Positions 17,082-17,810 of a stretch of 42,094 nt of DNA are shown here, in pieces. Each line of letters opens with the position of its first letter. Position 1 is the first letter of the stretch. The notes below the pieces were generated by a model. That model did not search any database. It was not told where the DNA came from and saw nothing but the letters and a program-made list of their open reading frames with translations. Source of the DNA: a virus; IMG/VR virus record IMGVR_UViG_3300043353_000062, positions 1-42,094 of that record, one strand, 5' to 3'. The translations under genes were made by a program, and so were the position numbers.

Positions 17082-17810
17082 ATGAGAAGACTACTTTTGG
17101 CGACCACGGCCTTACTTGCATTGTCGGTAGCACCCGCCAGTGCTTTTACTATCGACATCATTGCGACGTTCAATCAGAACGTCTCGTTCTCCGACCCGGC
17201 TGGTGTCAGCGTCGAAACCTACGCGGGCACCGGCTCCAACCAGCGAATCAACACCGCTGGCGGCAACGGCCTCAACAACTACATCAGTGCTGACGGCCCG
17301 GGAGGCCCGGCAAACAACCCGTCCGGTCTGTTCATTGGTAACATCACCAACGACACCTCGCCGTTCGGCAAACTGAACGACAGCCGCGTCTATCTTTCGG
17401 CTGGCGGCGGCGATGGCGTCAATGGCGGTGTGGTGGCTCTGAGTGGCTTCGCCCCGTCGAACTCGCTGGGCTTGCTTTGGGGTACGGTCGATAGTGGTGA
17501 CTTCCGCAATCGCATCGTGACTGCCGGTCCCGGTGGTTTAGACGTCATCACCGGCTCGATGGTCCTTCAAGCCTGCCACGATCAGGGCTTCACTTGCGGC
17601 GAAGGCGACACCAACGTCTTCCTTCGCATCAACGGCCTTGACACCTTCACGTCCGCGAAGTTCACGGATCGTGACGCGAATTCGTTTGAGTTCGTGCCGC
17701 TCGTAGCGGCGGTGCCGGAAGCTTCCACTTGGGCCATGATGATCCTTGGCTTCATTGGGATGGGCTTTGTTGGAATGCGCAAGAAGCTTGGCGGCGTTCG
17801 TATCGCCTAA
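17082..17810 (+). CDS. Exported PEPxxWA-CTERM-like sorting-signal protein
   Basis: 242 aa; ATG at 17082 with AGGAG 7 nt upstream. Residues 1-21 are a signal peptide with cleavage after ASA. The mature part is small, Gly/Asn/Asp-rich and beta-like, with one probable disulphide (ACHDQGFTC). The C-terminus has the sorting signal: [10 protein letters not shown] (about 211-220), a hydrophobic helix ([12 protein letters not shown]) and a basic end (RKK). In bacteria such tails are cut by exosortase and the protein is released or attached at the surface; the PEPxxWA form is typical of alphaproteobacteria. Here the third residue is Ala, not Pro. Finding it in a lytic phage suggests use of the host's own sorting system to change the cell surface. 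Confidence 0.85.
   Translation: [242 protein letters not shown]

Follow-up and report, generated by a model that had tools for sequence, protein, structure and literature searches.

Exosortase sorting has so far been studied as a housekeeping and biofilm pathway of bacteria, and we know of no function for most PEP-CTERM ectodomains. The gene at positions 17,082–17,810 of the window (the whole stretch of viral DNA analyzed here, 42,094 bp) raises the question of why a soil bacteriophage should encode a protein built like an exosortase substrate, how such a protein might reach the surface of the infected cell and what the phage might gain from placing it there.

The carrier phage and its predicted surface protein

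The record most likely represents a complete genome, since it has a 127-bp direct terminal repeat. The phage is one of a family whose members have DpoZ- and PurZ-like genes; its minus strand encodes the terminase, portal, scaffold, major head, tail and ejection proteins, and its plus strand a primase, a polymerase A nearest DpoZ, a PurZ-like synthetase, an SNF2-type helicase and HNH nucleases. The best NCBIfam matches of the polymerase and the synthetase are the DpoZ and PurZ models, each under its strict cut-off (Table 1), and the presence of both genes suggests that 2-aminoadenine replaces adenine in the genome. Judged by PurZ, Ochrobactrum phage vB_OspP_OH (54% identical) is the closest isolate, and no lysogeny genes were seen in the window phage in the searches made. 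A chimeric assembly or host contamination was ruled out by the terminal repeat together with the finding that the same genomic slot is filled in phages from other metagenomes. The sequence-only reading that preceded this work was therefore right to hold that the gene is not a stray host fragment: the phage genome is complete and sister phages carry a homologous gene. That reading had also placed the gene in a replication operon with overlapping neighbors. The surrounding module does contain the PolA, nuclease, PurZ and helicase genes, but the gene overlaps no neighbor, being preceded by a 13-bp gap and followed after 23 bp by a small ORF; it is the genes just upstream that overlap one another. 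This location also bears on the idea that the protein is a virion component, anchored by its helix during assembly and ending up in particles, which we consider very improbable, because the gene lies in the replication module on the strand opposite to the structural genes, its product has a signal peptide and related phages do without it.

Table 1. Positions in the window of the tagged gene, its parts and its surroundings
Feature	Position	Strand	Basis or remark
DNA polymerase A, DpoZ-like, left flank of slot	14165..15970	+	NF038380, 243 bits (cut-off 500)
Variable slot between DNA polymerase gene and orf17929	16021..17928	+	Locus comparison
Inverted repeat in leader, GGTGC-ATTCC-GCACC	17044..17058	+	Kept in sister phages
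Palindrome CCTAGCTAGG over Shine-Dalgarno sequence (AGGAG from 17071)	17064..17073	+	Sequence
Whole gene, PEPxxWA-CTERM-like secreted protein (predicted)	17082..17810	+	ATG start, 242 aa
Signal peptide (predicted), typical Sec type	17082..17144	+	Heuristic rule; kept in L001, L002, L123
Ectodomain family A, beta-rich	17145..17711	+	Homologues in phages L001, L002, L123
C-terminal sorting tag (predicted): VPEASTWA box, hydrophobic helix, RKK, tail VRIA	17712..17807	+	Type and ending as in Nitrobacter/Bradyrhizobium tags
Small membrane ORF (MGTWYYFIASLIAAAGLGYIIAWLIDEYRNIP), directly after tagged gene	17834..17932	+	32 aa; sequence comparison
PurZ-like adenylosuccinate synthetase, right neighborhood	19126..20181	+	NF038379, 208 bits (cut-off 300)

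All of the elements that had been read from the sequence, namely a signal peptide, a PEASTWA-type box, a hydrophobic helix and a basic tail, are present in the ORF. The signal peptide was recognized by a heuristic test, and the box, helix and basic tail follow one another as in Nitrobacter tags; the cleavage region, between APASA and FT, contains no cysteine and hence not the lipobox of Ltp-type lipoproteins. The PEP-CTERM models named as a check in the sequence-only reading, including that for the PEPxxWA form, failed to recognize the window protein, which scored 18.1 with PF07589 (cut-off 20.7), 20.8 with NF035944 (35), 13.7 with TIGR02595 (16) and 27.3 with NF038126 (50), such curated cut-offs being annotation thresholds and not biological properties. 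These scores alone would leave the call open. Chance resemblance is excluded by three further results. A homologue with an ectodomain of the same family, in locus L123, exceeds the cut-offs of PF07589 (24.8 against 20.7) and TIGR02595 (22.6 against 16); the protein encoded in the same slot of the sister phage L116, the ectodomain of which is unrelated, does so with the PEPxxWA model NF035944 (42.1 against 35), PF07589 (25.4 against 20.7) and TIGR02595 (20.3 against 16); and an anatomy scan, which looked for a rule-called signal peptide with a C-terminal 'VP', hydrophobic stretch and basic tail, was specific, in that it matched only this gene among the 98 window ORFs of at least 100 aa, none in four control phages from the same broad group, and a single spurious ORF in 1.0 Mb of reversed sequence. 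Searching other phages for the gene, as had been proposed, yielded homologues of the ectodomain in L001 (53% identical), L002 (45%) and L123 (37%); in a further comparison, the family-A proteins of L002 and L123 were 54% and 45% identical to that of the window. The window protein had no match by tblastn against INPHARED and belongs to no PHROGs family.

A variable slot and the exchange of ectodomains and tags

With the DpoZ-like polymerase alignment as the query, 80 loci were retrieved from IMG/VR, 75 of them at 56% identity or more; PurZ used alone gave no match in viral contigs, the exact patterns being too strict. In most relatives, the interval between the polymerase gene and orf17929 is essentially empty (about 0–150 bp), as in Ochrobactrum phage vB_OspP_OH, where the orf17929 homologue directly follows the polymerase gene, while in others it is filled with different genes. 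The slot holds a PEPxxWA-tagged gene in the window, L001, L115, L116/L171 and L123, a gene with the tag AVPGP...G.G[LI]PG...RR in L120, L129 and L185, and one with the tag VPVPG...ARRRRRA in L131. A tagged gene is found instead about 1.5–2.5 kb upstream of the polymerase gene in L138, L142, L170, L172, L173, L174, L176, L177, L179 and L184, and at yet another location in L189. Tagged proteins are thus encoded by at least 20 of the 75 related contigs, a lower bound because many contigs are fragments, although some are near-duplicates from different samples, and by at least four phages outside the DpoZ/PurZ family. Loci L003 and L008, which have isolate-style IMG identifiers and several tagged genes each, were left out of the phage evidence, and L007, L011, L013, L018, L024, L028 and L030 were left out of the counts on account of insufficient classification.

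To the left and right of the slot, the DNA of L001, L115 and L116 is 90–94% identical, and yet the ectodomains of these phages represent families A, C and B, respectively, which have no detectable mutual similarity; the swapped slots agree in leader, signal peptide and tag. Judged from these alignments, the tagged gene is an exchangeable cassette, which is new here. The same pattern extends beyond the family. In the 20 kb of locus L009 that were examined, the DpoZ/PurZ module is absent; L009 shares with the window 88 bp of leader and signal-peptide DNA (81% identical) and 44 bp of tag DNA (80%), and the ectodomains are without similarity. L002 encodes a family-A homologue, yet its portal and terminase families differ from those of the window phage. 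Family E occurs in L012 (with terminase phrog_9 and an integrase), family B in L015 (with a polymerase and a helicase), family C in L016 (with an endolysin gene) and family D in L010 (with a tail fiber).

Tags are exchanged as well as ectodomains. Family C has the PEPxxWA tag in L115, L014 and L016 and the VPGP tag in L142, L170 and L138 (as VPAP), the L115 and L142 ectodomains being 52% identical; family D has PEPxxWA in L010 and L004 and VPGP in L120, L129 and L185 (50–67% identity); and family E has PEPxxWA in L012 and VPVPG in L131 (55%). That these three families occur with two tag types is the strongest indication of a separate function for the tag, apparently matched to something in the host. 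The second tag, of the form VPGP..GAGLPG..hydrophobic..RRRR, is seen in phages L120 (3632–4375), L129 (6711–7466), L142 (3720–4373) and L185 (8242–9012), and a tag of the VPGP type is also present on secreted proteins of exosortase-free bacteria (loci L263, L266 and L267). None of the VPGP proteins tested matched an NCBIfam or Pfam tag model, and the tag is perhaps an undescribed sorting signal.

Among the ectodomains, family B (L116, 8781–9434; L015, 9440–10120) contains the motif WCLDV...QLAIWKAEYG and had no match among Pfam or PDB profiles; we take the motif to resemble the Cys-Gln pattern of thioester adhesin domains. The family-E profile contained part of the tag, and its many bacterial matches are not evidence of relatives.

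The tag in bacteria and the source of the sorting enzyme

The closest bacterial tags are those of Bradyrhizobium, Nitrobacter and related MAGs, the endings of which are alike (FRLA, FRFA and so on), and an exosortase is encoded in 18 of the 20 genomes with the closest tags. Among 146 Bradyrhizobium genomes, 19 have an exosortase, 25 have PEPxxWA proteins and 17 have both, so that the tag is found in 17 of 19 exosortase-positive genomes versus 8 of 127 exosortase-free ones (Fisher p 2e-14, or 6e-11 after removal of six genomes that had been chosen for their tags). In a family-wide bacterial sample, exosortase was present in 3 of 149 genomes, two of which have the tag. The proposal that the phage encodes an exosortase substrate is thus well supported as a prediction, by the completeness of the phage genome, the homologues in sister phages and a tag type characteristic of exosortase-bearing Bradyrhizobium and Nitrobacter; by its tag only, the candidate host would be one of these genera. 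Like the PEPxxWA-CTERM proteins of Bradyrhizobium, Nitrobacter and other alphaproteobacteria (NF035944, PF07589; Haft et al. 2006, PMC1569441), the window protein combines a signal peptide, a variable ectodomain, a PExxxWA box, a helix and a basic tail, and it has the same kind of ending. It differs in being encoded in the replication operon of a DpoZ/PurZ-like phage, in being swapped between phages and in scoring under the HMM cut-offs.

Exosortase was absent from all 18 viral records tested, so that the host would have to supply the enzyme, which only some hosts have. It was also absent from three bacteria with the VPGP tag, which suggests that another factor probably recognizes this tag or that it serves simply as an anchor; together with the second tag type in three ectodomain families, this indicates that not all such phages rely on exosortase. 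One account, to which we give somewhat less than an even chance, is that a common, mobile set of cassettes circulates among phages that infect soil alphaproteobacteria, the displayed domain being exchanged independently of a host-specific tag, with PEPxxWA serving exosortase hosts and VPGP...GAGLPG or VPVPG, neither of which matches an NCBIfam tag model, serving hosts with another sorting enzyme, such that the choice of tag follows the choice of host.

In another reading, the gene would be a mere passenger, acquired fortuitously from the PEP-CTERM genes of a host and without function for the phage. Its patchy presence, the match of the tags to Bradyrhizobium and the Bradyrhizobium relatives of a further ectodomain, family F, would agree with this, but the slot has been filled repeatedly with different versions while the leader was kept, and in several phage types, and selection acts on the gene. 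Relative to L001, dN/dS is 0.29 for the whole gene, 0.31 for the ectodomain alone and 0.07–0.21 for the flanking genes. The window gene is under purifying selection, and we regard a functionless passenger, already disfavored, as quite improbable. The gene is retained yet changes faster than its flanks, as expected of an outward-facing protein. The window ectodomain had no match in 296 Xanthobacteraceae genomes in a search run without a positive control.

Possible roles of the displayed protein

We consider it probable that the phage carries the gene as an exchangeable cassette for a surface protein, which would leave the cytoplasm through Sec, be displayed on the cell by the exosortase of the host and so change the cell envelope. 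We infer its expression, export, processing and host. From the signal peptide, the protein would be exported via the host Sec system during infection and its C-terminal helix would hold it in the inner membrane; from the tag, the host exosortase would then cut at the VPEASTWA box and move the protein to the cell surface, where the displayed beta-rich domain would alter the envelope of the infected cell and might stop other phages from adsorbing or injecting. The route of delivery is well argued, which its purpose is not. The suggestion made earlier, that such a protein might block superinfection or act on exopolysaccharide, is a plausible one, in keeping with the swapping of ectodomains and the uneven distribution of the gene. 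Superinfection exclusion is the likeliest purpose, though as a tentative guess; it would explain both the presence or absence of the gene between close relatives and the wholesale replacement of its domain, and it has a precedent in exclusion lipoproteins that are anchored by the host (PMC3952083). Those Ltp proteins of Streptococcus thermophilus phages are encoded by the phage, exported and fixed on the outer side of the membrane by the sorting enzymes of the host, and they have spread between phages, a likeness that for the window protein includes predicted export and anchoring. In contrast to Ltp, which uses a lipobox and comes from temperate phages, the window protein has a C-terminal exosortase tag and its phage has no lysogeny gene in the searches made; Ltp is an exclusion lipoprotein, and for the window protein that role is a guess.

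The main rival of superinfection exclusion is a surface adhesin, the displayed domain of which would bind polysaccharide or neighboring cells and so keep infected cells in flocs or biofilm where progeny meet hosts, or would loosen exopolysaccharide. In bacteria, PEP-CTERM proteins have been linked to exopolysaccharide and to the formation of flocs (PMC1569441, PMC9850573), and the predicted structures might be read the same way. AlphaFold models of family A (the window protein) and family D, of modest quality (pLDDT 60 and 61), are beta-rich with a C-terminal helix. Foldseek found nothing at E ≤ 0.001 in PDB or BFVD, a profile search of solved structures gave nothing meaningful for families A and B, and the best VIA-align resemblances (Z 6.4 for the window protein and 6.9 for family D), mostly to carbohydrate-binding beta-sandwiches, are weak, non-significant and no higher than background for models of this kind. 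Adhesion of infected cells would also bring little gain to a phage that soon lyses its host, and the many unrelated ectodomains fit an adhesin no better than they fit exclusion; we therefore hold an adhesin to be possible but rather unlikely. An exosortase decoy is less probable again. An abundant phage protein might saturate the enzyme, lower the display of host PEP-CTERM proteins and polysaccharide and so ease release or spread, which would agree with the sharing of the tag and signal peptide and the free variation of the ectodomain. A decoy would not account for the purifying selection on the ectodomain, however, or for its conservation across kinds of phage (family A in L002, B in L015, C in L014 and L016, D in L010), of which a decoy would have no need.

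In the open-access literature on PEP-CTERM or exosortase in connection with phages, viruses or auxiliary genes, outside of which a report may exist, we found no description of phage-encoded exosortase substrates. The nearest is a count of TIGR03118 proteins with a putative exosortase-interaction domain (n = 13) among the cell-derived genes of hot-spring viruses (PMC11003980). That case resembles ours in the presence of an exosortase-type tag in viral contigs and differs in that it is an entry in a list of gene transfers, the passage concerned describing neither a cassette nor any swapping of tags or link to a host. If phages do place their own proteins on the surface of infected cells via exosortase, the pathway would become a battleground between phage and host. 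The swaps amount to a natural experiment, in which one domain is paired with two tags and one tag with many domains, and they draw attention to a so far unnamed sorting signal, VPGP, for which an enzyme could be sought. The phage copies would also offer a small, selectable set of ectodomains with a likely phenotype.

The leader and neighbors of the cassette

The arms of the inverted repeat in the leader differ in other carriers yet still pair (GGTTC/GAACC in L009, CGGTACC/GGTACCG in L123), and different palindromes, CCTGATCAGG in L115 and CTTGATCAAG in L009, lie at the position equivalent to that over the window Shine-Dalgarno sequence. The folding energy of the whole leader is ordinary (z 0.2) and no better than that of shuffled sequences, so the paired arms are only a lead. 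The 32-aa membrane ORF downstream is restricted to three cassette carriers, namely the window phage, L001 and L116/L171. Upstream, a small protein starting MTRGFVVVFGATAMFSVMIAVAARHDV (about 16111–16452), apparently secreted or membrane-bound, is often found beside the cassette, and the ORF from 16021 changes fast (dN/dS 0.43 relative to L001). Just after the cassette lies a strong sigma-70-like promoter (TTGACA-17-TAAAAT, 17929–17957), and a promoter of the same kind precedes the tagged genes in L173 and L176.
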